NCBI RefSeq assembly: GCF_021172165.1
Contig: NZ_CP089096.1
Location: forward strand, 1,674,001-1,738,000
Source of the DNA: Flavobacterium channae
GTDB lineage: Bacteria > Bacteroidota > Bacteroidia > Flavobacteriales > Flavobacteriaceae
Length of the DNA: 64,000 bases
Reading direction: 5' to 3'
This document shows, in pieces, positions 7,148-49,701 of this stretch. Position numbers and translations under genes: made by a program. The first letter of the stretch is position 1. Every line of letters starts with the position of its first letter. A model generated the notes under the pieces. That model was given only the letters and a program-made list of their open reading frames with translations, had not been told where the DNA came from and did not search any database.

Positions 7148-7224
7148 ATACAGATAGCATACACTATCCATACACTATCCATACTGTATCTATACAGTAT
7201 CCATATAGCATCTATATAGTATTT
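7148..7224 (+). repeat. seven 11-bp tandem repeats before the array integrase
   Basis: Seven head-to-tail 11-bp units with consensus close to ATACAGTATCC (for example 7159-7169 and 7170-7180 are identical; later units drift to ATATAGTATTT). The near-helical period places every copy on the same DNA face. They end 35 bases before the integrase -7 box, so they look like iterated protein-binding sites, for the integrase itself or a regulator. Function is inferred. Confidence 0.75.
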
Positions 7225-7258
7225 CCTATTTAATTGAGAATTAATTACGTGATTTTTT

Positions 7259-7266
7259 TATATTTG
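7259..7266 (+). promoter_or_regulatory. -7 box of the array integrase gene
   Basis: TATATTTG, a perfect TAnnTTTG box, 20 bases upstream of the integrase ATG at 7287. Confidence 0.6.
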
Positions 7267-7286
7267 TTCCATACAAGCCATTAATT

Positions 7287-8330
7287 ATGAATTGGAAAGC
7301 CAAAACTTTACTACACAAAGGAACACCTAGAATTGCTGTTTATTTTGAAAAAAACACGGAATTAATTGCGCGCATTAAAACTTTTGAAGATGCAAGGTGG
7401 AGTCCAAATAACAAATACTGGCATTTACCCGATACAGAAGCTAATAGATTGCATTTTAAACTTCCATTAGCCCATACTTTAGTTCCAAATGCTGAAGGAA
7501 TTGCAAGCATTGAAACATTCAAACGCTATCTTTTATCAAAGCGCTACAGCCCAAATACGATTAACACGTATAGCGAAGCTTTGAAATCGTTTTTAACTTT
7601 TTGCAACACAAAAGCCGTAAAGGACATTACTAACGAAGATGTGATTTTATACAACAATGATTATATTTTAAAGCATAATTTATCTTCTTCGTATCAAAAT
7701 CAGATTGTAAATGCTATTAAACTGTATTTTAAGATTGTAAAAGACACTGCAATTGAAATTGACAAAATACATCGACCAAAACGAGAAAAAGTATTACCTA
7801 ATGTTTTGAGTAAAGAAGAGGTGAAAGCAATTATTTCTGCTCCTACAAACCAAAAACACAAAACAATGTTAAGTTTAATTTATTCTTGTGGGCTAAGATG
7901 TGGTGAGTTATTAGCACTTCAACCTCATCATATTGATTCTAAAAGAAATATAGTTTTACTGAAAAATTCAAAAGGGAAAAAGGACAGAATTGTTCCGTTA
8001 AGCCCTAAAATATTAGAACTATTAAGAGACTATTATAAAGTTTACAAACCAAAGACTTTTTTATTTGAGGGGCAAAAAGAAGGAACTCCTTATGATGCAA
8101 GAAGTTTACAGCTTATATTAAAACAAGCCTTAAAAAAAACCGGTATCACAAAACCTGCTACATTACATTGGTTGAGGCATAGCTATGCTACTCATTTACT
8201 TGAAAGTGGAACTGATTTACGTTATATTCAGGAACTTTTAGGCCACAACAGTAGCAAAACCACTGAAATTTACACCCATGTAAGTACAAAAAGTATACAA
8301 CAAATTAAAAGTCCATTTGATGATTTGTAA
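7287..8330 (+). CDS. tyrosine recombinase, likely cassette integrase
   Basis: A 347-residue recombinase. Residues 1-70 form an N-terminal domain (VYFEKNTELIARI ... ARWSPNNKYWHLP) seen in some Bacteroidota integrases. A SAM-like core-binding domain follows (about 75-160), then the catalytic domain. Catalytic residues are visible: Arg in SCGLRCGELL, Lys in NSKGKKDRIVPL, the box LHWLRHSYATHLLESG, His in LGHNSS and Tyr in EIYTHVS. The end IKSPFDDL recalls IntI (VRSPLDAL), as does GITKPATLH. The extra IntI helix region (patch III insertion, AGWHWVFP-like) is not present. It is encoded in the same direction as the cassettes, unlike most intI genes. It probably excises and inserts cassettes at the attI-like and attC-like sites. 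Confidence 0.85.
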   Translation: MNWKAKTLLHKGTPRIAVYFEKNTELIARIKTFEDARWSPNNKYWHLPDTEANRLHFKLPLAHTLVPNAEGIASIETFKRYLLSKRYSPNTINTYSEALKSFLTFCNTKAVKDITNEDVILYNNDYILKHNLSSSYQNQIVNAIKLYFKIVKDTAIEIDKIHRPKREKVLPNVLSKEEVKAIISAPTNQKHKTMLSLIYSCGLRCGELLALQPHHIDSKRNIVLLKNSKGKKDRIVPLSPKILELLRDYYKVYKPKTFLFEGQKEGTPYDARSLQLILKQALKKTGITKPATLHWLRHSYATHLLESGTDLRYIQELLGHNSSKTTEIYTHVSTKSIQQIKSPFDDL

Positions 8331-8349
8331 GAAAAATTTAATACATTTG
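8317..8349 (+). promoter_or_regulatory. Pc-like promoter reading into the cassette array
   Basis: TTTG (8317-8320), a 21-base spacer and TACATTTG (8342-8349). It straddles the integrase stop codon and points at the attI-like site 85 bases downstream. This is the place and direction of an integron Pc promoter. Match to consensus is seen; activity is inferred. Confidence 0.5.
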
Positions 8350-8397
8350 ATTTAACTAAAAAAGCGAAACAAAACTTCGTTTATCTACCCATAAATG

Positions 8398-8440
8398 GCT
8401 GTATATACGAAACTTTATATCGCATATATACAAGTTAGCG
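8398..8440 (+). other. attI-like recombination site
   Basis: Two inverted arms, GTATATACG and CGCATATATAC, flank a short AT centre. They are followed by the core CAAGTTAGCGG, with GTT at 8434-8436. The first cassette begins exactly here: TTAGCGGTGATTTT is the near reverse complement of AAAACCACCGCTAA at that cassette's end. The two-arm design is XerC/D-like and lacks the long folded hairpin of the attC sites, as expected of attI. Confidence 0.65.
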
Positions 8441-8577
8441 GTGATTTTACATGTAACGAAGAATGAATAAAATCTAGCCTTCCCATAATAAGATAAATCT
8501 ATTATTTTTAATAATAAAATAGAAACAAACGATTGAATTTTTGTTATATTTTAAAAATAGTAAACTAGTTTTGCTAT

Positions 8578-8727
8578 ATGAATAATAAAGCCGTAAATAA
8601 AGAAGCAATAATGAAATCTGTAGCCAAAATGGTTTCAGACAAAGCTTTGGTTCGTTCATTCTTGAAAGGCAATACTCCTATTGAAAAATTAACTCAAAAA
8701 GGAATCAAGTTTGCCAAACCAATATAA
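8578..8727 (+). CDS. small basic cassette protein (49 aa), C1 gene 1
   Basis: Short ORF (ATG 8578, TAA 8725-8727) of 49 residues, lysine-rich, ending KLTQKGIKFAKPI. A TAGTTTTG -7 box lies at 8566-8573 with TTTG 22 bases further upstream. It therefore has its own promoter, and the transcript would be nearly leaderless unless an internal Met (8611) is used. It overlaps the next gene by 17 bases in another frame, suggesting coupled translation. Unrecognised; the size and overlap are reminiscent of an antitoxin-like or adaptor gene, but no evidence fixes a role. Confidence 0.6.
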   Translation: MNNKAVNKEAIMKSVAKMVSDKALVRSFLKGNTPIEKLTQKGIKFAKPI

Positions 8728-9209: not shown

Positions 9210-9341
9210 CGCTAACAAGGGTTTTATGAAATTGGGGTTTTAGGCAAAAATTAAAGGTAATTTTATATATTTGACTTCAGTCCTAATGGAATGGTTTGGG
9301 AATAAAAATCCCCAACTTCATAAAGCCCCGGGACGTTACCT
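9210..9341 (+). repeat. attC1-like site (end of C1)
   Basis: Left arm GCTAACAAGGGTTTTATGAA and right arm TTCATAAAGCCC...CGTTACC pair over about 25 bp, closing with TTGGGG/CCCCAA. A TATATTTG -7 box sits between the arms at 9266-9273. The left core GCTAAC pairs with the start of C1 (GTTAGC, 8434). Confidence 0.85.
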
Positions 9342-12032: not shown

Positions 12033-12163
12033 AGGTAACAGCAGTTTGGCAAAATGGCGGGTTCAGTGCTAAATTGAACATATGTTTTCAAATGAACATT
12101 AGTACTAAATTGAAAGTAAGTGCTTCAACATCCGCCACTTCGCCAAGCTGCAAAACGTTAGCC
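12033..12163 (+). repeat. attC2-like site (end of C2)
   Basis: Arms TAACAGCAGTTTGGCAAAAT and CTTCGCCAAGCTGC with right core ACGTTAGCC. The central part holds repeats of CAGTGCTAAA/TAGTACTAAA. It is nearly identical to attC7. There is no perfect -7 box inside (TATGTTTT only). The left core AGGTAAC matches the C2 start GTTACCTGC. Confidence 0.85.
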
Positions 12164-14359: not shown

Positions 14360-14491
14360 GGCTAACAAGGGTTTGGCGTAATGGCGGCTGACGGACTTCT
14401 ACTGAGCTGACGTGCAAGGTCGAACACTAGTAATTCTAATCGGCTTCAGTGCTAAAAATCCGCCACTACGCCAAGCCCCAAAACGTTGTAG
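14360..14491 (+). repeat. attC3-like site (end of C3)
   Basis: Left arm GGCTAACAAGGGTTTGGCGT pairs with right arm ACGCCAAGCCCC; the inner stem is TGGCGG/CCGCCA. Right core ACGTTGTAG. The left core GTGGCTAAC matches the start of C3 (GTTAGCCAC). Confidence 0.85.
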
Positions 14492-15228: not shown

Positions 15229-15367
15229 CCTACAACAGCGGTTTGCTTCAATGGCTACTTCCGGATTTTCCTACGGAAAATCCGCTGCTGAATGGAATGT
15301 TTTGTTATATTTGTAATGGCTTGGTGTTGGTGCAACGCCACTGAGAGCAAGCCGCAAAACGTTGGTA
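15229..15367 (+). repeat. attC4-like site (end of C4)
   Basis: Arms ACAGCGGTTTGCTTCAATGG and CCACTGAGAGCAAGCCGC with right core ACGTTGGTA. An extra perfect 10-bp hairpin CGGATTTTCC/GGAAAATCCG lies inside the left half. A TATATTTG box is at 15306-15313. Body nearly identical to attC11. The C4 ends match for 15 bases with one mismatch (GTTGTAGGTA / TACCTACAAC). Confidence 0.88.
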
Positions 15368-16248: not shown

Positions 16249-16385
16249 GCTACCAACACAGGTTTTACGCTATTGCGGGTTTTGGGCTTAATTTAGAGTT
16301 TCTTTTGTATCTTTGAAGTCAGTGCAAAACCGAAAGTTAAGGTTTATTTAATCCGCAACAGACGTAAAGCCTGGGAACGTTGTGT
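16249..16385 (+). repeat. attC5-like site (end of C5)
   Basis: Arms CAGGTTTTACGCTATTGCGG and CCGCAACAGACGTAAAGCCT, right core ACGTTGTGT. A TATCTTTG -7 box is at 16308-16315. The C5 ends match: GTTGGTAGCT at its start, AGCTACCAAC at its end. Body closely related to attC6. Confidence 0.88.
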
Positions 16386-35105: not shown

Positions 35106-35159
35106 CTAAACTTTTTATTATTGTTAATTAATCCTACGATTTAACTCAGGACAGGCTAT

Positions 35160-37859: not shown

Positions 37860-39506
37860 TTACATGTTTTGCTCAATAGAATATCTCAACCACTTTTTAA
37901 TGCCATCAGACTTTAGTTGACGATTATCAACCATTTGCTTCAACATTCTACGAACTTTGTGCTTATTAATTTCTAGTCCTATTCGTTGATGTATTTCACT
38001 AAATGCACTATTTGGATAGGCTGTTAGGTCTTTAAAGATTAATTCTTCTAATCGATAATCTTCGATATTTTTTAAATTGGTTTTGCCTTTAAAATTAATT
38101 TTACGGATAAATTCAGGATTGACGGCATATTGTGTCCCTTTTCCTTTTCCTGTTTTAATAACTAATTCTAAATCAATTAATCGACCTAACCAGTTTCTTA
38201 AACCAACTTCTTCATTTTGATTTAAGATGCTGGATATTTCAAGAGCTGTATAGGATTGTTGCTGTGCTAAAAGACCTAAAGAAATTAATTCTTTTTGTTT
38301 TAAAGTAAATTCGTTACTTGCTTTATCCATTAATCGAACCACTTCTTTACTCACGAATTGTTTTTTTACAATTACAGTTACTCTTTCATTTGTTTCAATA
38401 ACGGTTGGTAATGGTTTTCCTGAACCTAGTAATTTTGCATATACTAAATCATAACCACTGCCTTCTTTTTCCATCAAACCTAAATCGTAGAAAACTTTTG
38501 ATAAATGTTCATTTCTTCTTATTGATTGGCTTAAAATGTTTTTTGGTGTAACCCCAAAAGGTAATCTACCTGGACTATGAATTTCCATTCTGTCAGGGTA
38601 TATATTTATAAAAACATCACCTCTAGTGGTGTATGTTCTATGAACCAAAGCATTAACCACTAATTCTCGCACTACTTCAATAGGGAAAAAAGGAATGTTT
38701 TTTCTGAACATTCCTTCAGATACTTCGACACTTTCTTGCCAGTCTGGCACATCGTTTAGTACTTTTTCTAGAAGTTCTTTTGGATTGGCGAAATAATCAT
38801 CTAATAATAGTTTCCAAACTTTTTCATCTTTATCATCAAAACGAATAACCTGAATAGCAGGAGGATATAATAATGAAGCTCTGTCGTTTCTTTTACCAAT
38901 CCAAAGAATACCTAAATTGGTTAAATACCCATTTTTTTGAATAAAATAAAAATCTAGAATTTCATCATCGCTCATTTCCTTTATGAATGAACTAACCCGC
39001 TGCGAATTTCTAACCTCTCTTATGAAATTTATACGTTTTGATTCATCAAATTGAGAAGCTGGCACTTTCTTAGTGATTTGTTCTTCCCAAACAAAGGCAT
39101 TTCTATCTGCAGCTAAGCGTGCCATTTCATCTGGTGGTATGGGCTTACATTCGTCATGAACTCTTACATAATATTTACCATCAGTAGTTGAAGCAATGGT
39201 TTGTGCATTTCTAAAAATTTGAATTTTTAAAAATTCGGCTTTGTTTTCTGCTGTTTCAATAGTTACCGCAACACTAACATTAATGGTTCTTTGTGCTATG
39301 TTTTTTTGAATAATATCCGGTTGGTTTCTATCTACTATTTTTTGTTTTTCTGGTGGCAAAGTAGCTGCATCTTCAATTCCAATATAGATAAAACCGCCTT
39401 GTGCATTCGCAAAACTAACACAATCTTTAGCTAATTCATCCCAATCCGTATTTTTCCCTTTAAGGAATTTGAGTGATTTTTTATCTATGTTTTTATTTTC
39501 TTCCAT
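37860..39506 (-). CDS. AlbA_2/Schlafen-type ATP-binding protein
   Basis: A 548-residue protein. The N-terminal AlbA_2 (divergent AAA-4, Schlafen-like) domain has CVSFANAQGGFIYIGIED (about residues 28-46). A central ATP-binding helicase-like C-terminal domain has VRELVVNALVHRTY (near 270), followed by HSPGRLPFGVTPKN. Winged-helix parts lie near the C-terminus. It begins at the hsdS stop (1-base overlap) and precedes hsdR, so it is part of the restriction operon. Known association with type I loci; its function there is unresolved. Confidence 0.88.
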   Translation of the reverse strand: MEENKNIDKKSLKFLKGKNTDWDELAKDCVSFANAQGGFIYIGIEDAATLPPEKQKIVDRNQPDIIQKNIAQRTINVSVAVTIETAENKAEFLKIQIFRNAQTIASTTDGKYYVRVHDECKPIPPDEMARLAADRNAFVWEEQITKKVPASQFDESKRINFIREVRNSQRVSSFIKEMSDDEILDFYFIQKNGYLTNLGILWIGKRNDRASLLYPPAIQVIRFDDKDEKVWKLLLDDYFANPKELLEKVLNDVPDWQESVEVSEGMFRKNIPFFPIEVVRELVVNALVHRTYTTRGDVFINIYPDRMEIHSPGRLPFGVTPKNILSQSIRRNEHLSKVFYDLGLMEKEGSGYDLVYAKLLGSGKPLPTVIETNERVTVIVKKQFVSKEVVRLMDKASNEFTLKQKELISLGLLAQQQSYTALEISSILNQNEEVGLRNWLGRLIDLELVIKTGKGKGTQYAVNPEFIRKINFKGKTNLKNIEDYRLEELIFKDLTAYPNSAFSEIHQRIGLEINKHKVRRMLKQMVDNRQLKSDGIKKWLRYSIEQNM

Positions 39507-40666
39507 TACACTTTTTCTATTTCTTTAGTGCTTAACTCCCCTTTAAACGCTTTCTCTAAAATACTTTTTTTGAGTTCTTCTAGATTGGCTAGTTTTTGTT
39601 GGTATTTGGTTACTAATAGATTGGTTTGTTCTTGTAATTTTTCGATTTGAGGAATTAATCGTTTTTGTTCCTCAATATTGGGAAATGAAATTTTAATTCT
39701 TCTCAAATCATCATTATATAACCTTGAAATTGTTGCTCCTTTTGATGGATTCCAATCACAAACTTTATAGAAATGGTATAAAAAATCATTTAAAACTTTA
39801 TCCTCATTATTATCAATCCAAACGATATTTGAATCTTGAAAAAATGAAGGTTTACCATCAAAAATTACTGTTCTTCCAATAGTTCCAGATGCAGATAACA
39901 ATATTTGACCTTTTTTTGGATAGGAATACTTTGTACTATATTCTTCAAAAATTTCTTTAGAAATATATGCATCAGGTTCTTTTCCAAATGTTCCTATTTT
40001 ATAAAATGGGATATCACCTTTTGGTAATGTTTGATTTTTTAAAATTCTTTTACACATTGAAACTTTACCCAATTCTCCTAATGTTTTTATCTGCCAACCC
40101 TCGTTATTTTCAGTTTCAGTGCTTAGAGTATTTTTAGAAAAAATTTGATTCAATTTAGATTGAAACAATTCTTTAGCGTTGGCGATGTTTTTTTCGATGT
40201 TGGCTTTGGCTTGATCTATGGCTGCAAAAGCTTGGTCGAGTTTGGCTACTATAGTGCGTTGTTCTTCGAGAGAAGGTAATGGTATTGGAATACTTCTTAA
40301 TTTTTCCTGATTAAGTTTAGGTACAGTCAAGCCAGTTATATAATCAGATAAATCACGATGATTAAGGTAATAAACCAAATAGCTGTCGATTAAATTATTT
40401 TTTGGTTTTAAAACATGTGCATGATTATTCACCCAAACTTTACCTTCTACAATAAAAGCAGTGTTATCACCAGAACACCATTTTGCACCATCTTCCCCAA
40501 CTAAAACTAACCTTTCATCAAAGATAAAGTCATTTACATAATCTACTATACCTGTCGCACCATAGTATGGAAATTCCCCAGCTATTCGTTTATTTTTAGA
40601 TATAGGTTTTCTTTTGTTATCTAATATTTCACAAATTTCACCTAACTTTTCTTTTTCCCATTTCAT
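39506..40666 (-). CDS. hsdS: type I restriction enzyme, specificity subunit
   Basis: A 386-residue subunit with two target recognition domains. TRD1 covers about residues 1-150 (WEKEKLGEICEIL...) and TRD2 about 190-340 (GWQIKTLGELGKVSM...). Each is followed by a conserved helix (LPSLEEQRTIVAKLDQAF and NIEEQKRLIPQIEKLQ) that sets the spacer length. I choose ATG 40666, directly after the hsdM stop (TAATATG); an ATG 15 bases upstream would overlap hsdM. The bipartite recognition sequence cannot be predicted. Confidence 0.92.
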   Translation of the reverse strand: MKWEKEKLGEICEILDNKRKPISKNKRIAGEFPYYGATGIVDYVNDFIFDERLVLVGEDGAKWCSGDNTAFIVEGKVWVNNHAHVLKPKNNLIDSYLVYYLNHRDLSDYITGLTVPKLNQEKLRSIPIPLPSLEEQRTIVAKLDQAFAAIDQAKANIEKNIANAKELFQSKLNQIFSKNTLSTETENNEGWQIKTLGELGKVSMCKRILKNQTLPKGDIPFYKIGTFGKEPDAYISKEIFEEYSTKYSYPKKGQILLSASGTIGRTVIFDGKPSFFQDSNIVWIDNNEDKVLNDFLYHFYKVCDWNPSKGATISRLYNDDLRRIKISFPNIEEQKRLIPQIEKLQEQTNLLVTKYQQKLANLEELKKSILEKAFKGELSTKEIEKV

Positions 40667-40667
40667 A

Positions 40668-42155
40668 TTACACCAACTCATTTAAAGTTCCTAAAATCTC
40701 ATTGGTTTCTTCGTCTAGTGTTTGCATTTCTTCTAAAATTAGTGCTGGTTCACGTAGTGGAGCTTCTTCTGGTTTGTTTGGGTTTTTAACGGATAAGTCG
40801 TAATTAGACACTTCGCCTCTCGACTCCGCTCGAGATGACAACGCTGCAATTGAGAGGTTCCAAGACTTTTCGGTTTCGGGCTTCGACACGCTCAGTTTTA
40901 GAAAATCTTCTAAATCAGCATCGTTTAATGGGTTGTTTTTGCCTAAGTTTCTACCGGCATCAAACTGATAGTACCAAATGTTTTTTGTAGGTTCGCCTTT
41001 GGTAAAAAACAACACTACTGTTTTAACTCCTGCCCCTAAGAACGTTCCTTGAGGCATGTCGAGTATGGTGTGCAAATTACAGGTTTCTAATAAGTGTTGG
41101 CGTAAAGCTACCGAAGCGTTATCGGTATTACTTAAAAACGTATTTTTAATGACTACCGCTGCACGACCGCCAGCTTTTAATGACTTAATAAAATGTTGCA
41201 TGAACAAGAATGCCGTTTCTCCTGTTTTGATGTCGAAGTTTTGTTGCACTTCGATACGTTCTTTTCCTCCAAATGGTGGATTAGCTAGGATGATATCGTA
41301 ACGGTCTTTTTCTTGAATGTCGCGTATGTTTTCGCCAAGGGTATTGGTGTGCACAATGTTTGGTGCTTCGATGCCATGCAAAATCATGTTCATCGTACCG
41401 ATGATGTAGGCTAAGTTTTTCTTTTCTTTTCCGAAGAACGTATTGTCTTGTAACTGCTCTAAATTGGCAGCTGTTTTTTCCATTTTCTCATACAAATACT
41501 CGTACGCTTCACACAAGAAACCTGCAGAACCACAGGCAGGATCGTATATTTTTTCTCCAATTTTCGGGTTCATTACTTTTATCATCGCACGAATCAATGG
41601 TCGTGGTGTATAATATTGTCCACCATTACGACCGGCATTGCCCATGTTTTTAATCTTGGTTTCGTACAAATGCGATAGTTCGTGTTTGTCTACACTGGTT
41701 CCAAATGGTAAACCGTCGACCATGTTGATGATTTCACGCATGTTATACCCCGATTTGATTTTGTTACTCAGCTCGGAGAAGATTTCGCCAATTTTATATT
41801 CGATGGTTTTTGGGTTATCGATGTGTTTTTCTTTGAAACTTGCTAGGTATGGGAATAATTCGAATTCTACAAACTTTACTAAATCGGGTCCGATTAGTGC
41901 TTTGTGGATGTCGATTTCTCCTTTTTCATTTTTAGGCGCTGCCCAAGTTTCCCATTGGAATTTTGGTTCTAGAATAGCTGTATAGTTTTTTCCTTCTAGT
42001 ATGGCTTCGTCTTCGCGGTTTTTGTCAAAACTGTCTAAGTATCTTAAAAACAATACCCAAGAGGTTTGCTCGATGTAATCGATTTCTGAATCTGCTCCTG
42101 AATCTTTATATAGTAAGTCGTCAATGTTTTTGAATGTTTGCTCGAAATTGGCCAT
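40668..42155 (-). CDS. hsdM: type I restriction enzyme, methylase subunit
   Basis: A 495-residue N6-adenine methyltransferase. Motif I is DPACGSAGFLCEAYEYL (near 200) and motif IV is NPPFGGKERIEV (near 285). An HsdM N-terminal helical domain precedes them. Near residues 435-455 the sequence SSRAESRGEVSNYD is the translation of a genomic repeat (40818-40840) inserted in frame, in a loop where it seems tolerated. First gene of the leftward operon. Confidence 0.94.
   Translation of the reverse strand: MANFEQTFKNIDDLLYKDSGADSEIDYIEQTSWVLFLRYLDSFDKNREDEAILEGKNYTAILEPKFQWETWAAPKNEKGEIDIHKALIGPDLVKFVEFELFPYLASFKEKHIDNPKTIEYKIGEIFSELSNKIKSGYNMREIINMVDGLPFGTSVDKHELSHLYETKIKNMGNAGRNGGQYYTPRPLIRAMIKVMNPKIGEKIYDPACGSAGFLCEAYEYLYEKMEKTAANLEQLQDNTFFGKEKKNLAYIIGTMNMILHGIEAPNIVHTNTLGENIRDIQEKDRYDIILANPPFGGKERIEVQQNFDIKTGETAFLFMQHFIKSLKAGGRAAVVIKNTFLSNTDNASVALRQHLLETCNLHTILDMPQGTFLGAGVKTVVLFFTKGEPTKNIWYYQFDAGRNLGKNNPLNDADLEDFLKLSVSKPETEKSWNLSIAALSSRAESRGEVSNYDLSVKNPNKPEEAPLREPALILEEMQTLDEETNEILGTLNELV
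40800..40850. repeat. REP-like repeat inside hsdM
   Basis: CTCGACTCCGCTCGAGATGA and its neighbourhood, nearly the same as 44160-44190 inside the primase gene. It contributes in-frame residues SRAESRGE. A second repeat-like piece, TTCGACACGCTCAG, follows near 40882. Confidence 0.7.
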
Positions 42156-42552
42156 TGTATTTTCGTAAGTTTATTAATTCGTAAATATAGTTAAAAGCAA
42201 TTGAAAGAAAAATGAGGAAAACCGTATTTGAATAAAAAATAATGAAAATTAAAGAAAAAAAAAGCAGGGTGTAGGGTGTAGGGAAAAAACGTGTAAAAGA
42301 TTTTTATTTTTTTGAAAATAAAAAAAACGGATTTATTCGAGGAATTGGGTGCAAACTACACTTAGTAGTTTATTGATTTGCTTTTGATTGTACTGATGTT
42401 GCTAGAAAATTTGAACAGTAAAAAAACTCAAAATGTTTGTGTGGAAATTTGGTTACACCCCTTACACCCTCTTTTTAGTGTTCAGTTTTCGGTGGTCAGT
42501 TTGCAGAAAAAAAAGTGGCAACTTTCGTTTACCACTTTTGATTTTTTTGAGT
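42156..42552. other. gene-free stretch before hsdM
   Basis: No credible ORF. A weak minus-strand -7 box TATATTTA lies at 42189-42182 before hsdM. Tandem CAGTTTTCGGTGGTCAGTTT-type sequence occurs near 42482, a flavobacterial simple repeat. Otherwise AT-rich spacer. Confidence 0.5.
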
Positions 42553-44745
42553 TTAGATTTCGGATTGTCGGTTGGTTTGATCTACTTCTTCGTAGGTAAA
42601 TTCTTTTACTGCGTAGACTGGACTTCCTTTTCGCATTAGTCTTGTGAAATTGTGCTTTTTTAAAGCTTTTCCGATTTTGTTTATTGTTCCGTCGTTAATA
42701 GTGATTTTTGCTCTTTCTGCTAGTTTAGCTGCTATTTGTGAAGCATTTAAAAATGCATTTGCCTTTTCTCTATCGCAAGGTTCAAACCATGTTAAAAGCA
42801 ATTCTTCTTCTGGGCTTCGTAGTTGGTATTGTTCGTTGTTTTCTGTGATGTTTTTGATTTCTTCTTGGTCGAACCAATGTCTGAATCCTGTTTTAAATAA
42901 ATACAAGGCTTGGGATAATACATTGTCAATATTGATTTCGTGTTGGTATTGGATGTTTTCCACTTCAAAACAAAGGAATCGTCTGCTTCCTGTACTGTCG
43001 TTTAAGAATTGCGCTGTGTTGACACTTCCGGCAAATGATGCGCGTCTTGGCATAGTTTCGTTGTTGTGTCCGTAGGCTTTTCTCATTCTGATTTGTGTCT
43101 TTGTGATGATTTCTTTTAAGCTACCAATTTCGGAACGGTTTAGATTTTCTAATTCGTCCAGGTTAATCAACATACATTCTGATAGCTGTACTAAAGTGTC
43201 TTTGTTGTTTGGGTTTATGGTTCCTGAGAACAAATACTCTTTTAATTTTCTAGGGACTAGCTTTTCTACCCAAGTGGTTTTTCCTAATCCTTGTTTTCCA
43301 CTGAATACAATTACCGTGTGATTGATTACTTTGTCATCCAATACACAACCGACCATTGCTACCATCCATTTTTTAAAACACTCTTGCCAAAGTTCTTGTT
43401 TTGTAGTGGTTATCGTGTTTGCTAATTCTAAAATATAGTCTGTTTTTTCATCATACGATGGTAGATTGTAAAAGTAATCTTCGAATGGATTGTATAATTC
43501 ACAGAAATCGGAATACAATAGGTTTCGCAAAGAAGAAAGGTTTGTTTTGATTCTTCCTTTTAAACATTCGCGAAGCATTGAGTTTTCTATAAAGTCGTTC
43601 ATTACATGCCATTTCTTTTTACCGAAATATTGAAACTCTAACTTGCCTGAAACCATGTTGTGCCGAAATACATATCTTGTGGATAGGAATAATTCTAATC
43701 GGTCGATTTGGGTTGGTTTTGGTTTGTCATCATCGATTTCATCGATGTTAGCCTTCTTGGAAGGAGTTTCCTCGGCATAGCTCGGAATGACAGCGTTTTT
43801 TGATTTACTTTTAGTGTTTCTGTTCTTTTCAAAGTATTCATCTTTTCCAAATTCGTGAATGTTTCCGTAGGCGCTGTGTACTGTTTGTGTTACTTCTTTT
43901 TCGTCATAGCCAAAGTCTGTTAGTATGAAGCTTAGTGCTTCGTTTAATGAAATGCCTTTTCGGTTTAGGTTGCACGCGAGTTGGTGTACGAATACATTTC
44001 GGCTACCTGTCACGTATTGCACTTTTTTTTCGGTGAAACGAACGCAGTGGTTATAAACAGCTTCGCTGTTTTCCGTTGTCGGTTGTTGGTTGTCGGTTTG
44101 TCGCACTTCGACAGGCTCAGTGTGACTAGATTGATTTGAGTTTGTTGCACTCAAACGCATCTCGCCCCTCGACTCCGCTCGGGATGACAGCATTTCATTT
44201 TGCTCTCCTGTGACAAATGTCTTTGCAGCTTCGTTATGATAGAGGTTATCGTCGAATGAGTAGAAACATAGTCGGGTTATGTCTTTTCCGGATTTGTCTA
44301 TTTCATGGTTTAATAGGGTTTCATAGTGTTTTTGGATGGCTAAAAAGGTTTCTTTATGGTCTTCTTTTGTGGTGTTTACTTTTACTAAAATCTTTAATCC
44401 ATTGCCTGATGGACTTATGAAACTTGCATAGGTGTATTCAGATTGATTGGCTTTATGTTTTGCGTTTTGTAAATCGGTTTGACTTAATTTATCGATGTCT
44501 AGGATTATGAAATTGGAGTATGCTTCCAAAAATTCCATTTTTCTTCCACCTACAAATTTTCCTGAAGGTGTGAATGCAGGTAATGATTTTTTGGCTTTTT
44601 CATAGGCTTCTAGTTTGTTTTCGGCTAATGATTTACGCAAATAGGTTATCCCTGGTCTGTACTTTCCTGTTTTGATTTCGTGCAGGATTTCGGGAATTGT
44701 TTTGTGTTCTATTACTTCGTTGAAGTTTTTGAAGATTGTTATCAT
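42553..44745 (-). CDS. BT4734/VirE-type primase-helicase of the element
   Basis: A 730-residue replication protein. The N-terminal BT4734/BF3469-like domain is primase-related (FIILDIDKLSQTDL, then SPSGNGLKILVKVN). A middle repeat-rich linker follows, then a VirE-like P-loop ATPase (VFSGKQGLGKTTWVEKL, near 440). It is typical of integrative elements and phage satellites in Bacteroidota and probably initiates replication of the excised circle. The linker carries three genomic repeats read in frame (near 43765, 44105 and 44175), giving residues such as SSRAESRGE and HTEPVEVR. Confidence 0.87.
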   Translation of the reverse strand: MITIFKNFNEVIEHKTIPEILHEIKTGKYRPGITYLRKSLAENKLEAYEKAKKSLPAFTPSGKFVGGRKMEFLEAYSNFIILDIDKLSQTDLQNAKHKANQSEYTYASFISPSGNGLKILVKVNTTKEDHKETFLAIQKHYETLLNHEIDKSGKDITRLCFYSFDDNLYHNEAAKTFVTGEQNEMLSSRAESRGEMRLSATNSNQSSHTEPVEVRQTDNQQPTTENSEAVYNHCVRFTEKKVQYVTGSRNVFVHQLACNLNRKGISLNEALSFILTDFGYDEKEVTQTVHSAYGNIHEFGKDEYFEKNRNTKSKSKNAVIPSYAEETPSKKANIDEIDDDKPKPTQIDRLELFLSTRYVFRHNMVSGKLEFQYFGKKKWHVMNDFIENSMLRECLKGRIKTNLSSLRNLLYSDFCELYNPFEDYFYNLPSYDEKTDYILELANTITTTKQELWQECFKKWMVAMVGCVLDDKVINHTVIVFSGKQGLGKTTWVEKLVPRKLKEYLFSGTINPNNKDTLVQLSECMLINLDELENLNRSEIGSLKEIITKTQIRMRKAYGHNNETMPRRASFAGSVNTAQFLNDSTGSRRFLCFEVENIQYQHEINIDNVLSQALYLFKTGFRHWFDQEEIKNITENNEQYQLRSPEEELLLTWFEPCDREKANAFLNASQIAAKLAERAKITINDGTINKIGKALKKHNFTRLMRKGSPVYAVKEFTYEEVDQTNRQSEI
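43758..44190. repeat. three REP-like repeats inside the primase gene
   Basis: CCTCGGCATAGCTCGGAATG (near 43771), CACTTCGACAGGCTCAGTGT (near 44104) and CCTCGACTCCGCTCGGGATG (near 44167). These are palindromic genomic repeats of flavobacteria, all read without frameshift in the linker of the primase. Confidence 0.7.
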
Positions 44746-44762
44746 GTTTGAGTGAAAAGTGA

Positions 44763-44933
44763 TTAGTGAAAAGTCTTAGTGGTTGTTCCTGTTTTACAGT
44801 CACATACCTCACATGTTCCATTACATTTTTTTTTATGGTAGTTTTTATTTGATTTTTTAATTGTCATAAAGAATCGCTTTATTTTTATTGGATTTTTTTT
44901 TATAAAAAAGCAGTTGTTAAGTTGCGATTTCAT
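44763..44933 (-). CDS. small basic cysteine-rich protein
   Basis: A 56-residue ORF whose ATG (44933) follows the HTH gene's stop by one base (TAGTATG), suggesting coupled translation. Very basic, ending with the cysteine cluster CNGTCEVCDC, which could bind a metal. It is short and AT-rich, so coding status is uncertain. Confidence 0.4.
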   Translation of the reverse strand: MKSQLNNCFFIKKNPIKIKRFFMTIKKSNKNYHKKKCNGTCEVCDCKTGTTTKTFH

Positions 44934-44934
44934 A

Positions 44935-45216
44935 CTATTTTCCTTTGAATGATTTGTTGTAGTGTTCTTGTAGTAGTTTTTCAACGTCAGAAAGTTTGTA
45001 GTAGATTTTGCTTCCTACTTGACTGAATGAGATTTTACCTTCATCTCTCCAGGTTTGTGCTGTGCGTTTGGAGATTTTCATCAGCATGATGAACTCTTGA
45101 TTGTCTAAGAAGGTTTCTTTCTTTGGGTCTGGCTTGGTGTTTAGTTGGCTTTGAATTGCATCTAATTTTGCCATTAAGTCATTGTACTGGTCTTTTGTTA
45201 AAATAATTGCTTCCAT
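44935..45216 (-). CDS. HTH DNA-binding protein (excisionase/regulator type)
   Basis: A 93-residue protein starting MEAIILTKDQYNDL; a start 30 bases upstream lacks conservation logic. A coiled-coil lead (about residues 8-25) precedes an HTH_17 domain (LMKISKRTAQTWRDEGKISFSQVGSKIYY). Located between the primase and the RteC-like gene, near the integrase. Typical place of the element's recombination directionality factor or copy regulator. Confidence 0.8.
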   Translation of the reverse strand: MEAIILTKDQYNDLMAKLDAIQSQLNTKPDPKKETFLDNQEFIMLMKISKRTAQTWRDEGKISFSQVGSKIYYKLSDVEKLLQEHYNKSFKGK

Positions 45217-45264
45217 TTTCGTGGTTTTTAAAAGATTATGGAGCAAAATTGTGAAGTAAAAAAA

Positions 45265-45297
45265 AGTCCCTTAGTCCCAAACGGGTCCCAAGGGACT
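45265..45297 (-). terminator. terminator
   Basis: AGTCCCTT/AAGGGACT hairpin with a second inner TCCCAAACGGGT part, followed by a T run on the minus strand, after the RteC-like gene. Confidence 0.7.
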
Positions 45298-45305
45298 ATT
45301 ATTTT

Positions 45306-46214
45306 TTAGAGGAAGTTATCGAGGTCTATTCGTTTGTGGGTCTTTGGTCGTTTATCGCCTCGTGATGGTTTGAGGATGGTTTCGACTGTTTGGGGACTTA
45401 TTTCGTTGTTGTCTTTGTCGATAAAGTTATTGACGATCATATTTACTATGTCGCCATTGGAAGCATCAATAAATGATTTTCCATCAACAAATAGTTCGCG
45501 ACTTAGTTGGTAGAATATATCTACTAATTGGTTTAGGTTTCCGTTAAATTTTAGTTTTTTAGTTATTAGTTTTTTCTCCAGTTCTAGTTCTTTTTCTTTC
45601 TCAATTTCCGAACGCATTTTGCGAAGCGTTTGTAATTTTTCAATCAACTGAACGCATTGTTGGTCATAAGAATGTAGTTTACTGTTTATTGAAATGATGT
45701 CGGCTTGTCGGTATTCGAAAATTTCTTCGTTTAAAAATAAAATTTGATCATTGAAGGATTCCATTTTTTCAACCTGTTGTTTGATTTCAAAAAATGAAAA
45801 ATAACGATCTTCCGATTCGGCATTGATTAACCTTTTTGGAGTACTTTGTTTGGTTTCTTTTATGCTCGAAGATTGCAGCTCTGTTCGTTTTTTCTCGATT
45901 ATGTTGTACAATTTATTGAATCTACTCAATGCCTTTTGACTAAAGAATAGTTCTTCATTGTTGGCTAATAATTTTTCGAACTTGTTTAACCAAGTGTTTC
46001 CGTCTTGGGCAATTTGGAGTTGGTAGTTAATGAATTCGGGTAGTTGGGATTGTGGGATTGTAAATACTTTTTCAAGTAAAGCAATACAATAGTTTTCCAG
46101 TGTGGGTTCCTGGTCGTGCGTAATGTCAAAAATAGAAGCTGCACTTTGTGCTGTGTCGATAGTTCTCCATTCTGAGAATAATGATTTTTTGATGTTTTGC
46201 CCTTTCAAGTTCAC
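45306..46214 (-). CDS. coiled-coil protein with RteC-like C-terminus
   Basis: A 302-residue protein. A central coiled coil (about residues 90-215) is followed by LNQLVDIFYQLSRELFVDG and ends VETILKPSRGDKRPKTHKRIDL. This tail style is frequent in Bacteroidota element proteins related to RteC, a regulator of excision. Assignment is tentative. It lies between the integrase and the HTH gene, which supports a role in control of excision or transfer. Confidence 0.6.
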   Translation of the reverse strand: MNLKGQNIKKSLFSEWRTIDTAQSAASIFDITHDQEPTLENYCIALLEKVFTIPQSQLPEFINYQLQIAQDGNTWLNKFEKLLANNEELFFSQKALSRFNKLYNIIEKKRTELQSSSIKETKQSTPKRLINAESEDRYFSFFEIKQQVEKMESFNDQILFLNEEIFEYRQADIISINSKLHSYDQQCVQLIEKLQTLRKMRSEIEKEKELELEKKLITKKLKFNGNLNQLVDIFYQLSRELFVDGKSFIDASNGDIVNMIVNNFIDKDNNEISPQTVETILKPSRGDKRPKTHKRIDLDNFL

Positions 46215-46500
46215 GTTTTTTGCCGGTGTTAAATTTGTTCATTATTTGTTATTTGGTTACACTTTTTCCAATGTCACTACTTGAAATGGTATAGTTGCTT
46301 GAAGTTCAGGTATACTTCAAGTTGATTTCAATATGATTTTGGATTTTTTTTAATATTTGGGATGCCTAAAATTAGAACAAATTCAGTACCGCTTTGCGTT
46401 GTTTTTCGTACAAGTTTTCAACAAAATTGCGAGGGCTTGTATTTGCTAGGTTTTTGGAATTCAGGAGTAAAAAAGGATAAAATTTACCTTCGAAAAAGAA

Positions 46501-46535
46501 AACGAGAGTAATTTTTTGAAGTAATTACTCTCGTT
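46501..46535 (-). terminator. terminator after the element integrase
   Basis: Stem AACGAGAGTAATT/AATTACTCTCGTT (13 bp, perfect). On the minus strand it follows the integrase stop. The rest of 46215-46500 shows no gene. Confidence 0.75.
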
Positions 46536-46540
46536 CTGTT

Positions 46541-47758
46541 TTAGTAGATGTAGTTGTCAACCGCTTTGTCTAATTCTTCTGAAATGATTTTAGCATATAC
46601 CTGGGTTGTGCTAATATCGCGGTGGTCCATTAGTTTTGAAACGTGCTCAATTCTCATTCCGTTATTTAAAGCATTGGTTGCAAAGGTATGGCGGCTTATG
46701 TGAAATGTTACTTTTACTGGAATTTCTAATTTCTTTGCTATGCGCTGTAATTGAAAATTAGCTGCTTTATTGGCACTTTCAATAAAAGTATAACGGTATT
46801 CATCATTCTTTAAATACAGCTCTTTATTTGTGATTACAGGGAATATAAAGTCATCTTGTTCTGCATTTTCCTTTTTGTATTTGTTGATGATGTCCAATGC
46901 TAACTGCCCTATTTTAAACTGATGCATTCTTCCTGTTTTGCGAATTACTTTTTGTATTCTTCTTTCTTCTTCATTGAAGTGTTTTACTTGAAATTCTAAT
47001 ACATCACTGAATCGTAATCCTCCAGCGAAAATTGAAAAGATAAACATATCGCGATATACACTCGCTTTTGATTTTTCATCTAGTTTATAATTGATAATCG
47101 CTTCGAATTGCTCTTTCTTTAAAAACTGTCTTCTGCTTGGGTCTTTCTTTAATTTCAACTTACTAAACGGATACATGTATTCAGGAATTAAGTCTTCTTT
47201 GATAGCTTCTTTAAACATAATCGCCAAAATCATAATCGAATAACGTTGTGTTGTATTTCCGTTTTTTAGTTCGTTGCTTAGATAACTCATATAGTCCATT
47301 AATAATGAAACTGTAATGTCATCAAAATAAACCTCCTTGGTTCCTACCCATTTTTCGAACTTATCTAAATAGGCATGGTAATTTTTATAGGTTGAAATGG
47401 AAACGTTGTTTCTGATTCGTTCACAATGCTTTCTTGAATACTCGAAGAAATTTGGTACTTCTTTTCCTTTTATGGCTTCCTTTAGTTTTTTAATGGAAAC
47501 GGTTTTTACTTTACGCTCCATGTCGGCAATTTGTCCTTCAGCATCGGCAATTTTTTGAGCAAGTGCAGCATTCATTCGCGCGCTATTAGGATAGCTTTTC
47601 TTTACTCTCTGCTTTGCTTCATCCCAATCACTTTCTTTGAGTTTGAGTCCGGCAGTGATAAATTTCGTTTTTCTATCTTTTATAATTCTAATGTACAAAG
47701 GGCTTTTACCTGTTTGATCTTTCTGATTGGTGCGTAGTATTAATTTAATGGATGCCAT
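46541..47758 (-). CDS. int: tyrosine integrase of the 21.8-kb element
   Basis: A 405-residue recombinase of the Bacteroidota CTn/IME type. It has an Arm DNA-binding domain (about residues 1-85), a SAM5 core-binding domain (about 105-205) and a catalytic domain. Catalytic residues: Arg in GGLRFSDVLEF, the box HISRHTFATNAL, His in MDHRDISTT and Tyr in QVYAKI. Its start lies 236 bases from the right attachment repeat, with arm-type sites in between. It presumably recognises TAACAGCGGTTT in an attC and integrates there. Distinct from the cassette integrase at 7287. Confidence 0.93.
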   Translation of the reverse strand: MASIKLILRTNQKDQTGKSPLYIRIIKDRKTKFITAGLKLKESDWDEAKQRVKKSYPNSARMNAALAQKIADAEGQIADMERKVKTVSIKKLKEAIKGKEVPNFFEYSRKHCERIRNNVSISTYKNYHAYLDKFEKWVGTKEVYFDDITVSLLMDYMSYLSNELKNGNTTQRYSIMILAIMFKEAIKEDLIPEYMYPFSKLKLKKDPSRRQFLKKEQFEAIINYKLDEKSKASVYRDMFIFSIFAGGLRFSDVLEFQVKHFNEEERRIQKVIRKTGRMHQFKIGQLALDIINKYKKENAEQDDFIFPVITNKELYLKNDEYRYTFIESANKAANFQLQRIAKKLEIPVKVTFHISRHTFATNALNNGMRIEHVSKLMDHRDISTTQVYAKIISEELDKAVDNYIY

Positions 47759-47777
47759 AATTATAGAATATTAGAAA

Positions 47778-47887
47778 TGTTGTACTATATTTGTAAAGCG
47801 GTGAAAACGAGTGAAAGTATTGATTTTACTAGTGTTTCATTCTAGTGCAACGGAGTACTAAGGTACAACAATTGGTACAACAAATCA
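47778..47887. repeat. right arm-type integrase sites
   Basis: GTACAACA-N4-GTACAACAAATCA at 47863-47887 and an inverted copy TGTTGTAC at 47778-47785, close to the right end. Matching pair at 26235-26258. Confidence 0.6.
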
Positions 47888-47994
47888 AGTATTTTGATGC
47901 TTTTTTATGCTTAAATTTGCTTTAGTATTTTTTATAAAGTCAATAAATACAGTACTTTAAGTGCAAAAGGGTACTTGCAGAATTATTATAGAGA

Positions 47995-48129
47995 TAACAG
48001 CGGTTTGCTTCAATGGCTACTTCCGGATTTTCCTACGGAAAATCCTCTGCTGAATGGAATGTTTTGTTATATTTGTAATGGCTTGGTGTTGGTGCAACGC
48101 CACTGAGAGCAAGCCACAGAACGTTATAC
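47995..48129 (+). repeat. right part of attC11 / attR of the 21.8-kb element
   Basis: Begins with the 12-bp repeat TAACAGCGGTTT (47995-48006) and continues as an attC body nearly identical to attC4, including the CGGATTTTCC/GGAAAATCC hairpin, the TATATTTG box (48068-48075) and CCACTGAGAGCAAGCCAC. It ends with core ACGTTATAC. Confidence 0.9.
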
Positions 48130-48250
48130 ATTAGTTGCCAACTGCGCGGAAATTCAGGAACTTAATGCAACGAACTGGAATCGAAATCTTAAAAAATTGC
48201 AGTAAAAAATAATTGGAAATTCTTTGTGGAAAAATTCAATTTGAAAAAGA

Positions 48251-48310
48251 AACTGGAAAAGCAAACCGGAAAAACTAACCGGAAAAACTAACCGGAATAA
48301 CTAACTGGAA
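48251..48310 (+). repeat. short tandem repeats in cassette C12
   Basis: Five loose units of ACTAACCGGAAAA in a row within the ORF-less cassette, just upstream of the candidate RNA gene. Confidence 0.6.
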
Positions 48311-48345
48311 ATTCAGTACGCAAATCGTTGAAATCAAGTCTATCT

Positions 48346-48480
48346 TAAATTTGTTATAAGTGTGGAAGAAAAATCCACACACATAACAAATCACGCGCTT
48401 TCTTGAATGCCAGCGCGCATTAGCATTTTAGTTTTTTTTGAATTTTAAGTGTTGTTTAAAAAAACTAAAAAGCTAATTTC
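48346..48480 (+). ncRNA. candidate structured RNA gene, ORF-less cassette C12
   Basis: Cassette C12 (48124-48735) has no credible ORF. A TAAATTTG box (48346-48353, TTG 15 bases upstream) is followed by three stem-loops in a row. Stem 1 is TTTGTTAT..GTGTGGA / TCCACAC..ATAACAAA (48350-48390). Stem 2 is a GCGCG pair at 48394-48417. Stem 3 is an 18-bp stem, TAGCATTTTAGTTTTTTT paired with its complement (48421-48438 / 48458-48475), ending near a short T run. This looks like a small RNA with a terminator-like third hairpin. Expression is unproven. Confidence 0.45.
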
Positions 48481-48579
48481 CCTTCGCTCCTTTCGCGCCA
48501 ATTGGAACGCAAAAAACAGAACCGGAAAATTGGAATGTGAAAACTTTGTGTTTTTAAATATTTTGGGCGGCAACCAATG

Positions 48580-48741
48580 TATAACAGCAGTTTGGCAAAA
48601 TTGCTAGGTCAGTTTTTATCAGTGAGCACCGGTGTTTGCAATTCTTCTTCGAAGTGAGGTTTTTTCTTTCAAACTTTTCGGTATATTTGTTAACGTAACT
48701 AATTAATTGTCGCAACTTTGCCAAGCTGCAACACGTTAATG
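48580..48741 (+). repeat. attC12-like site (end of C12)
   Basis: Arms ACAGCAGTTTGGCAAAATTG and CAACTTTGCCAAGCTGC, right core ACGTTAATG. A TATATTTG box at 48682-48689 lies 72 bases before the C13 gene. The C12 ends match over 17 bases with one mismatch: GTTATACATTAGTTGCC at its start, GGCAACCAATGTATAAC at its end. Confidence 0.88.
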
Positions 48742-48761
48742 TAAAAAAACCGAGAAACTAA

Positions 48762-49556
48762 ATGAATAAAACAATATTTGAGATTACTAAAATGGACTGT
48801 CCTTCAGAGGAAAATCTAATCCGAATGAAATTGGACGGAATTCCAAGTATTGCGAATTTGGACTTTGACATTCCCAACCGAAAACTGACCGTTTTTCACA
48901 GCGGAGAAACTGACCAAATCGAAAAATCAGTTATCGAACTGAATTTAGGCGGAAAGAAAATCTCGACTGCACAAACTGACCAAACGGAATTTAATGAAAA
49001 TGCAAATCAAAAAAAATTACTTTGGACTGTCCTCGGAATAAATTTCGCATTTTTCCTAATCGAAATGACAACAGGAATAATCTCAAAGTCAATGGGTTTG
49101 GTCGCAGACAGTTTAGATATGCTTGCAGATAGTTTTGTTTATGGAATTAGTTTGTTTGCGGTTGGCGGAACAGTAATAAAGAAAAAACGGATTGCCAAAC
49201 TTGCTGGATATTTTCAAATAACACTTGCAATTATTGGATTTGTAGAAGTTTTAAGGAGATTTTTCAGAGACGAGAAACTACCCAACTTTTCGACAATGAT
49301 TATTGTTTCGATTTTTGCACTTATTGCAAACGGAATTTGCCTTTACATTTTACAAAAGTCAAAAAGTAAGGAAGATGCTCATATGAAAGCAAGTATGATT
49401 TTCACTTCAAACGATGTGATTATCAATTTAGGAGTAATTACAGCAGGACTTTTGGTAAATTGGTTGAGTTCAAGCAAACCTGATTTGATTATCGGAACAA
49501 TCGTTTTTGTTTTGGTAATTCAAGGAGCTTTTAGAATTTTAAAATTAAGTAAATAA
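48762..49556 (+). CDS. CDF-type cation transporter with HMA-like domain, cassette C13
   Basis: A 264-residue inner-membrane transporter. An N-terminal HMA-like metal-binding domain (FEITKMDCPSEENLIRMKL, residues 4-22, a single Cys) is followed by about five helices of a cation diffusion facilitator. The metal-site motif is in VADSLDMLADSF (near 115). It probably exports a divalent metal. Last cassette gene, with the attC12 -7 box just upstream. Confidence 0.82.
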   Translation: MNKTIFEITKMDCPSEENLIRMKLDGIPSIANLDFDIPNRKLTVFHSGETDQIEKSVIELNLGGKKISTAQTDQTEFNENANQKKLLWTVLGINFAFFLIEMTTGIISKSMGLVADSLDMLADSFVYGISLFAVGGTVIKKKRIAKLAGYFQITLAIIGFVEVLRRFFRDEKLPNFSTMIIVSIFALIANGICLYILQKSKSKEDAHMKASMIFTSNDVIINLGVITAGLLVNWLSSSKPDLIIGTIVFVLVIQGAFRILKLSK

Positions 49557-49564
49557 ATAAAAAA

Positions 49565-49701
49565 CACTAACCACAACAATGGCTATAAGTAATTGCTTGT
49601 TCTCGCCTACTTCTGAAAATCCTCGCGGATTTTCAGTTTGGTGTGTACTTGCACAGTTAAGTGCTAAACCACGCAACTACTCATAGCCGAGACCGTTAAA
49701 A
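49565..49701 (+). repeat. attC13-like site, right end of the array
   Basis: Arms CAATGGCTATAAGTAATTGC and CGCAACTACTCATAGCCG, right core CCGTTAAAA. An extra hairpin CTGAAAATCC/GGATTTTCAG is inside. The C13 start GTTAATGT matches its end CACTAAC. After this site no further attC is seen and the chromosome resumes. Confidence 0.85.

Follow-up and report, generated by a model that had tools for sequence, protein, structure and literature searches.

A sedentary gene-cassette platform in Flavobacterium channae, probably served by a tyrosine recombinase without the IntI insert

Can gene cassettes be captured in the manner of an integron by a recombinase that is not an integron integrase (IntI)? The question is raised by a locus of Flavobacterium channae (assembly GCF_021172165.1, contig NZ_CP089096.1), where a tRNA-Tyr gene is followed by a tyrosine recombinase gene (the integrase) and then by a row of hairpins of about 130 nt on the + strand. 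The window, meaning the whole 64-kb stretch that was analysed, covers positions 1674001-1738000 of a 2.81-Mb single-contig genome. An original prediction, made from the letters alone, read 7148..49701 of the window as an integron-like cassette array run by a non-IntI enzyme. We are confident that the locus is a sedentary gene-cassette capture platform, in which an integrase of a distinct lineage recombines attC-like sites with each other and with an attI-like site. It works like an integron and fails membership of the IntI integrons. The anatomy, the hairpin structure, the matched cassette ends, the junctions, the duplicated and exchanged cassettes, and the coupling of orientation to the integrase lineage argue strongly, as far as sequence and comparison can, that this kind of platform is real and active.

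The cassettes are closed by a hairpin whose outer boxes pair around AAC and GTT. Twelve of these sites were defined from AAC to GTT and aligned, and pairs were counted for one named stem. Of 264 cells, 91.7% paired and 47 carried a change on each side, where shuffles averaged 72.0% and 13.7; neither value was reached by any of 500 shuffles. Sliding one arm by 1-3 columns lowered pairing to 27-45%, a comparison that favours the stem because the fold behind it came from a sequence of the same set. A covariance model built from the 12 sites and run unfiltered over the window returned 13 sites between 9211 and 49700, all on the + strand (E ≤ 5.7e-8). Twelve of them had served to train the model and are bound to match; the 13th (49572-49700, 41.5 bits) had not. 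The other matches in the window were weak antisense images of the same hairpins or had E ≥ 1.7. Rfam at its gathering cut-offs matched only the tRNA in the window. Chance repeats are ruled out by the covariation and the covariance-model scan.

The same structure recurs beside homologous integrases. One genome per species was scanned, the best 80 of 558 loci were used, and the best 150 of 157 site matches in them were placed. These 150 matches fell in 44 loci (144 sense and 6 antisense images) and, in an alignment fitted to the structure, were 90.9% paired with 859 two-sided cells against a shuffled mean of 256. In the 12 window sites, two A.C mismatches of the top strand are invariant, at 7/123 and 21/105 of the model, where the bottom strand has T.G; all or nearly all sites have T.G at 12/114, which is A.C on the other strand, and 4-5 nt are unpaired on one side beside the outer box. 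The invariant mismatches and the one-sided unpaired nucleotides mean that the top and bottom strands fold differently. No conserved one-sided extra base was seen among the 12 aligned sites, three of which carry one extra nucleotide. For known attC sites, passages of PMC2727003 describe the use of an unpaired spacer, extrahelical bases and a variable tip.

The cassette ends follow a rule of their own. In cassettes 1-12, the first 9-10 nt, counted from the G of the preceding site's GTT, are the exact inverse of the end of the same cassette, mostly followed by a mismatch at position 11 and by further pairs beyond. A hairpin of the array thus draws its two outer arms from different cassettes. Twelve of 13 in-order end pairs in the window matched, and the in-order pairing beat all 100,000 permutations, in a test that covers cassettes 1-12. 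The single failing pair spans 26.2-48.0 kb, that is, an inserted element. Among the other loci, 88 of 99 consecutive pairs matched over at least 8 nt, against a shuffled mean of 3.4 and a maximum of 10. Matched ends are expected if the unit is a circle with a complete hairpin that is opened by the array.

The attI-like site was deduced without a motif, by searching for the inverse of the first cassette's end. This placed it 92-106 nt past the integrase stop in 30 of the 44 loci and elsewhere in 12, among them a locus with an early-stopping integrase frame (L052); two loci gave none. In the window the site lies at 8389..8444 (+), with the junction G at 8434, about 104 nt past the stop, and palindrome arms at 8407-8412 and 8418-8423. 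A motif search with the last 10 nt before the junction, 40-190 nt past the stop, yielded 82 rows, and 11 loci were tried without any; 71 of the 82 lay at 90-110 nt. The conservation of these last 10 nt is partly produced by the search, since rows were selected on it, and some picks may be wrong (that of L089 differs from the deduction by cassette ends). The A at +11, for which no selection was made, is present in 81 of 82 rows. The arms form 6 bp around a 5-nt loop. In 80 distinct rows they were 78.8% paired with 149 two-sided cells, against 51.7% and 45 after the right arms were redealt (maxima 60.2% and 83); by eye, four of six arm pairs form in the window copy. The attI-like site of the original prediction is confirmed, and cassettes probably enter there. 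The arm covariation could also be explained by palindromic double-strand binding, and classical attI is held, in passages of PMC4792948, to be read as a double strand.

Comparison of loci at this junction revealed exchange. Twenty-four locus pairs (not independent of each other) are 80% or more identical over the 400 nt that precede the junction. In 22 of them identity dropped to 25-65% in positions 4-23 past it, with the break at G|TT. The two remaining pairs show no difference anywhere, probably because each is one genome entered in two collections. Identity between the window and L052 (Flavobacterium sp. UBA7663) is 98% over 400 nt before attI and 35% just past GTT; hence they hold different first cassettes at the same attI.

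A second array in the same genome adds to this. It belongs to a paralogous integrase with 88% identity (975438-976478, minus strand), with 14 sites downstream and 10 upstream, on the strand of that integrase; the count leaves out one short weak match (E 0.044) and antisense images. All 23 consecutive ends match over 9-10 nt. Two cassettes, of 1095 and 715 bp, are each present twice and are 100% identical end to end. The match runs only 2-3 nt past the junctions, and the 60-nt flanks are 38-42% identical. Cassette 3 of the window recurs in the array of another host (L089) with 79% identity over 2.2 kb. Cassette exchange is thus seen in the different first cassettes and in the duplications; strains without cassette gain or loss would have spoken against the predicted system.

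A conserved promoter motif points into the array. In 48 of 82 loci TAnnTTTG begins 0-30 nt past the first base of the stop codon, with 14 the commonest distance. TTTG stands 17-23 nt ahead of it in 47 of 82 and, in 39 of those 47, falls inside the last integrase codons, 12 nt before the stop. Of 80 distinct leaders, 42 have TAnnTTTG just past the stop; shuffles gave a mean of 0.33 and a maximum of 3. We take TTTG with TAnnTTTG to be the Bacteroidota promoter consensus. In the window the motif covers 8316..8349 (+), with TTTG at 8316-8319 in the last codons and TACATTTG at 8342-8349. A promoter with both boxes inside the leader between stop and attI was found in only 3 of 81 loci and was rejected. 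The Pc-like promoter of the original prediction is kept as a motif and corrected in its placement. It probably drives the cassettes.

The integrase gene (7287..8330, +) encodes 347 aa: an extra N-terminal part of about 70 aa, a SAM-like core domain, and a tyrosine recombinase catalytic domain without the IntI insert. A Pfam profile search matched PF00589 and the core domain and gave no match in the first ~70 residues. The segment from RIVPLS to LRHS measures 65-66 aa in 89 of 89 sequences of the lineage, the window's included (four incomplete ones were excluded). It measures 107 aa in 31 of 31 IntI, a set made up of 30 from the phylum and IntI1 of R100, and 69-73 aa in four Xer. The insert is therefore absent from every lineage sequence compared, as had been proposed for this enzyme, and the separate N-terminal part that was proposed with it is present ahead of the core domain. 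The R, K, HxxR, H and Y columns, which we presume to be catalytic, are invariant in 43 homologues.

A tree of 65 rows placed 45 of the 89 lineage sequences in one clade (99/98) and 16 of the 31 IntI in another (100/100), with the window integrase outside the IntI clade; the possibility that it falls inside IntI, which the original prediction had named as fatal, was thereby checked. The outgroup was Xer, including the two other Xer-like enzymes of the genome (L001, L004). The order of the lineage, IntI and Xer is unsure because the outgroup branches are long, as the tree program warns. The tree does not decide whether the lineage evolved beside integrons, from them or into them.

The N-terminal part is harder to place. 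In the structure model of the integrase, residues 1-60 are predicted with high confidence as two strands, a helix, two strands and a helix; modelled alone, the part is poor (pLDDT 50). Fold searches with the whole model hardly probe residues 1-60 and are uninformative for them. When the N-terminal 73 aa of 24 members were searched against Pfam, eight matched DUF5710 weakly (best E 0.0034) and one matched HARP weakly (E 0.013); the window's own 73 aa gave neither match. A profile search of the Protein Data Bank (PDB) returned weak matches alone. The part looked HARP-like by its pattern; given these weak matches and the poor stand-alone model, no fold is assigned. The consensus GARWSxxxKxWHxPD at 7287-7500 is weakly DUF5710/HARP-like. 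It is possible that this part binds DNA in place of the IntI insert.

Taken as a platform, the locus would work as follows. The integrase of 7287-8330, which is the likely catalyst, would recombine the attC-like hairpins mutually and with attI at 8434, with the cut placed between G and TT. Excision would give a circle, the probable intermediate, in which the two cassette ends complete one hairpin. Re-insertion at attI would put the cassette beside the promoter in the 3' end of the integrase gene, so that the newest gene would be expressed first. The substrate is probably a folded single strand, and probably the bottom strand.

That last step has a competitor. The same platform could exchange double strands at the G|TT core, with the hairpin kept for another reason, such as a cruciform or replication. 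The nearest solved structures by sequence and fold are XerA (4a8e, 5hxy), with IntI4 just behind; the integrase lacks the IntI helix that is tied to single-strand sites; and IntI itself, according to passages of PMC4792948, retains double-strand activity. Against this, the stem sequence is free while pairing is preserved, and the invariant mismatches make the strands differ in a way that suits the choice of one of them. On balance we think double-strand exchange unlikely.

A classical integron with a merely divergent IntI would share the layout and logic of the locus. The integron integrase profile TIGR02249 does reach 200.3 bits on the window integrase, and an SPxD-type motif is shared at the C terminus. 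The end rule as such is also shared with integrons, since classical class 1 cassettes have matched ends (12 nt in aadB and 8 nt in cmlA); the end-match script found no candidate for the arr-2 and aadA1 cassettes. The TIGR02249 score, however, is below the cut-off of 265 and comes in two pieces, and NF040815, the XerA model of NCBI, scores 223.1 bits, above its cut-off of 220. The site model found no match on the R100 stretch with the aadA1 cassette (E ≤ 0.1), and on a stretch with blaVEB-1, aadB, arr-2 and cmlA5 it matched the blaVEB-1 hairpin alone (E ≤ 1, filters off). With the missing insert and the separate clades, a divergent IntI is highly improbable.

The distribution of the sites bears on whether the integrase belongs to them at all. 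The best 80 loci came, among others, from Flavobacterium, Chitinophaga-labelled metagenome-assembled genomes (MAGs), Pelobium, Algoriphagus, Saprospiraceae, Bacteroidales and an Ignavibacteria MAG, and the nearest named relatives of the window integrase were mostly Flavobacterium. A site match was held by 44 of the 80 loci, and of the 144 sense matches 143 lay downstream of the integrase; the stretches upstream served as an internal negative control. By hand count, 34 of 37 loci with at least 2.4 kb past the integrase have sites. Among the 36 loci without a match, 33 hold less than 2.4 kb past the integrase, and one of the three long ones (L046) has a match at E 0.0018, outside the best 150. 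Homologues without nearby arrays, which would have told against the predicted system, are therefore rare where the locus is long, and the proposed scan of relatives, run with the model from 12 sites, found the arrays beside homologues.

At a wider scale, the site model matched in 169 of 199 genomes of the genus (E ≤ 1e-3) and in 173 of 247 of the class (E ≤ 1e-4), and the integrase was found in 131 of the same 247 (1e-45), in keeping with the prediction of a system typical of Bacteroidota. Both were present in 119 genomes, the integrase only in 12, sites only in 54 and neither in 62 (odds ratio 11; the p value is not independent evidence because the species are related). IntI above cut-off occurred in 84 of 296 phylum genomes, counted over all classes together; one of the 84 is in the class of the window. 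By hand count of 50 IntI-bearing phylum genomes, sites occurred in 16 of 19 with the lineage integrase and in 6 of 31 without it.

One might still suppose that host XerCD or an insertion sequence (IS) transposase moves the hairpins, which would then be passive repeats or transposon ends, and that the integrase is a chance neighbour. Sites do exist without a nearby or detected integrase, and in both L143 and L150 one identical start sequence follows several of the sites. Given the fixed orientation and position of the sites relative to the integrase in 44 loci of several families, the near-fixed distance of attI from the integrase stop and the split among IntI-bearing genomes, we hold this to be very improbable. 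The shared start sequence follows four of five sites in L143 and three of four in L150 (15119-20699); these are perhaps elements inserting at the sites.

Several observations weigh against the platform as described. In the 150-match test, two of five measures (pairs with two-sided change and further pair types) were not above shuffles. The end rule was broken by 11 of the 99 pairs. The integrase frame of L052 stops early, at 237 aa, and the -7 motif of the promoter is missing from the tested interval in 38 of 80 leaders. The 54 of 247 genomes with sites and no detected integrase, and the 12 showing the reverse, also count here, as do ten serial sites upstream of the second integrase (G000:C1:983760-992399) that have none of their own, nine consecutive pairs of which obey the end rule. 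For sites without their own integrase, a trans-acting or lost enzyme must be assumed. The breaks past GTT could partly be explained by rearrangement via other routes. In four divergent loci that belong to other phylum classes, a match of at least 8 nt was reached by only 2 of 9 consecutive pairs. Finally, only one of four consecutive pairs reached 8 nt on a Chryseobacterium plasmid (L150), which also showed no attI at the usual distance, and another such plasmid (L149) has an attI-like motif at +104 and no site match.

The four divergent loci (L143, L144, L145 and L146) come from genomes among the 50 that bear IntI. Their integrase is shorter and faces away from hairpins of this kind, an arrangement also seen in classical integrons. 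L145 has a palindromic attI-like site roughly 112 nt from where the gene starts.

The array of the window is not uninterrupted. Thirteen cassettes in one orientation, each with a hairpin of about 130 bp, had been predicted; the covariance model found the 13 sites, and cassette 11 proved to be split by an integrative element at 26173..47994, which is outside the cassette array. The left part of hairpin 11 (26159..26172, +) is cut at the core TAACAGCGGTTT (26161-26172), and its right part, with a core copy at 47995-48006, covers 47995..48128 (+). The covariance-model site that begins at 47993 is this right part, adjoining the element end. The same 12-nt core thus stands at both ends (26161 and 47995), and the joined flanks fold like the other sites into one hairpin, which rules out a continuous array. 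The element encodes an arm-binding integrase (46541-47758, minus), a VapE-like protein and type I restriction genes. Two more genomic copies of its integrase end abut the same core and a hairpin start (L135, ~6824-12722; L138, ~9887-15297). With three copies at the core, the element family appears to target the cassette hairpins. Apart from the element, the anatomy of the predicted array 7148..49701 is confirmed.

The cassettes themselves carry varied cargo, including a methylase-specificity fusion, GmrSD-type proteins, an EcoRI-type methylase with a restriction enzyme, an MFS transporter and a cation efflux protein. Hairpin 1 (9211..9340; this and all later hairpins are on the + strand) closes a cassette with a DUF6169 protein, and hairpin 2 (12034..12162) one with an N6 methylase and its specificity domain. 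Hairpin 3 (14361..14490) follows the GmrSD-type protein of cassette 3. Cassette 7, with the EcoRI-type methylase and an HNH-type restriction enzyme, ends at hairpin 7 (19955..20085), cassette 9, with a PF00144 family protein, at hairpin 9 (22116..22245), and cassette 10, with the MFS transporter, at hairpin 10 (25287..25414). In cassette 10, a transposase pair (HTH_Tnp_1 and rve, 22505-23889) lies ahead of the transporter gene. Hairpins 4 (15231..15366), 5 (16252..16384), 6 (17604..17735), 8 (20875..21010) and 12 (48580..48740) were supported by the covariance model and the cassette-end match. The divergent hairpin 13 (49572..49700) closes the cation-efflux cassette and the array. The hairpins at 15231-15366 and 47993-48128 are 97.7% identical over 130 bp with flanks that do not match further; therefore, hairpins themselves may spread or convert. 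Upstream of the platform, tRNA-Tyr occupies 7016..7098 (+), and the gap between it and the integrase (7148-7240) holds short AT-rich near-repeats, CATACACTATC, CATACTGTATC and ATATAGCATC.

Homologues of the integrase also occur on plasmids. A search matched 391 plasmid records, including Sinorhizobium, Rhizobium and Acinetobacter, mostly below 60% identity. The two Chryseobacterium plasmids encode a full-length integrase with 67% identity, and L150 has five sense site matches downstream of it. The homologues in Klebsiella and Aeromonas seemed candidates for array-free relatives; those that were followed are truncated integrases beside blaVEB. A plasmid of Aeromonas veronii, like three Klebsiella records that are nearly identical, has a truncated integrase with the end KSPFDDL; an attI-like palindrome and blaVEB-3 follow it, with the junction 74 nt past the truncated stop. 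In L152 (5001-6763) the truncated integrase and attI lie right before blaVEB-3, and the site model found no hairpin past that gene. By hand count among the 40 of 50 records listed, 26 matches to the blaVEB-3 stretch begin no more than 3 nt from the junction. In a class 1 integron, the blaVEB-1 cassette shows a 10-nt end match with a mismatch at position 11, and its hairpin was found by the site model at E 1.1e-6, with a modest 34 bits. This end signature of the platform was observed in L153 (3001-4077). The start, end signature and hairpin of blaVEB cassettes fit the platform, and they differ from it in setting: some records have them within a class 1 integron, others next to a truncated lineage integrase. 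In our reading, blaVEB probably reached class 1 integrons as one of this platform's cassettes, and its capture by IntI1 itself is likely.

The platform thus resembles the chromosomal IntI integrons in its integrase, promoter, attI, oriented array of imperfect-hairpin cassettes, G|TT junction and matched ends, and the integron-like reading of the locus is upheld by the tree, the arrays beside homologues and the cassette exchange. Unlike them, it has an integrase without the insert, in a separate clade and with an extra N-terminal part, encoded co-directionally with the array. Its hairpins have a one-sided unpaired spacer and invariant mismatches instead of conserved extrahelical bases, its ends match over 9-10 nt, typically with a mismatch at 11 and further pairs, and its attI has covarying palindromic arms. 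XerCD serves in chromosome dimer resolution. The platform integrase is like XerA/XerCD in its closest solved relatives and in its NF040815 match, and unlike them in its place at cassette arrays and its N-terminal part.

Some relatives are named 'site-specific tyrosine recombinase/integron integrase', which is the title of NF040815, and a precomputed PF22823 label is attached to integrase relatives. Where the original prediction knew of no standard annotation, a name thus exists. As to the system, we found no description in the open-access literature, a scope beyond which lie most subscription papers and preprints, so that absence from print is not implied. Passages of Smyshlyaev et al. 2021 (PMC8138268) describe an 'integron-like subgroup' in which the insertion is not fully conserved and call the insertion essential for integron function; the text does not contain 'attC', and the passages describe no arrays for insertion-free members. 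Parts of IntegronFinder 2.0 (PMC9024848) tell IntI apart by its extra domain and state that Bacteroidetes had at first yielded In0 only, with a complete integron of Salinibacter reported after that. A 2008 survey picked genes by the additional domain or the intI patch, as parts of PMC2426708 state, and The Natural History of Integrons counts Bacteroidota among integron-bearing phyla in passages of PMC8618304. PMC8352920 does not mention 'Bacteroid' or 'Flavobact', and PMC10989005 does not mention 'integron', 'recombinase' or 'VEB'.

A bolder view can be offered tentatively, at somewhat less than even confidence. The lineage may be a second line of single-strand cassette-capture machines that does without the IntI helix, perhaps by using its N-terminal part, and recognises attC as well as attI in folded hairpin form. 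Gene capture in Bacteroidota would then run mainly through this platform, largely unseen by surveys that look for IntI, and the platform would feed cassettes such as blaVEB into class 1 integrons.

A study by Messier and Roy (2001) reportedly addresses the need for the IntI insert in folded-DNA recombination. The platform makes that need directly testable, and it bears on how integrons arose. Several cassettes in the window carry restriction-type genes. The platform recurs across Bacteroidota with an integrase that lacks a part thought essential in integrons. Through blaVEB it is tied to the spread of clinical resistance, and it may be the source of this clinically important resistance-gene cassette.

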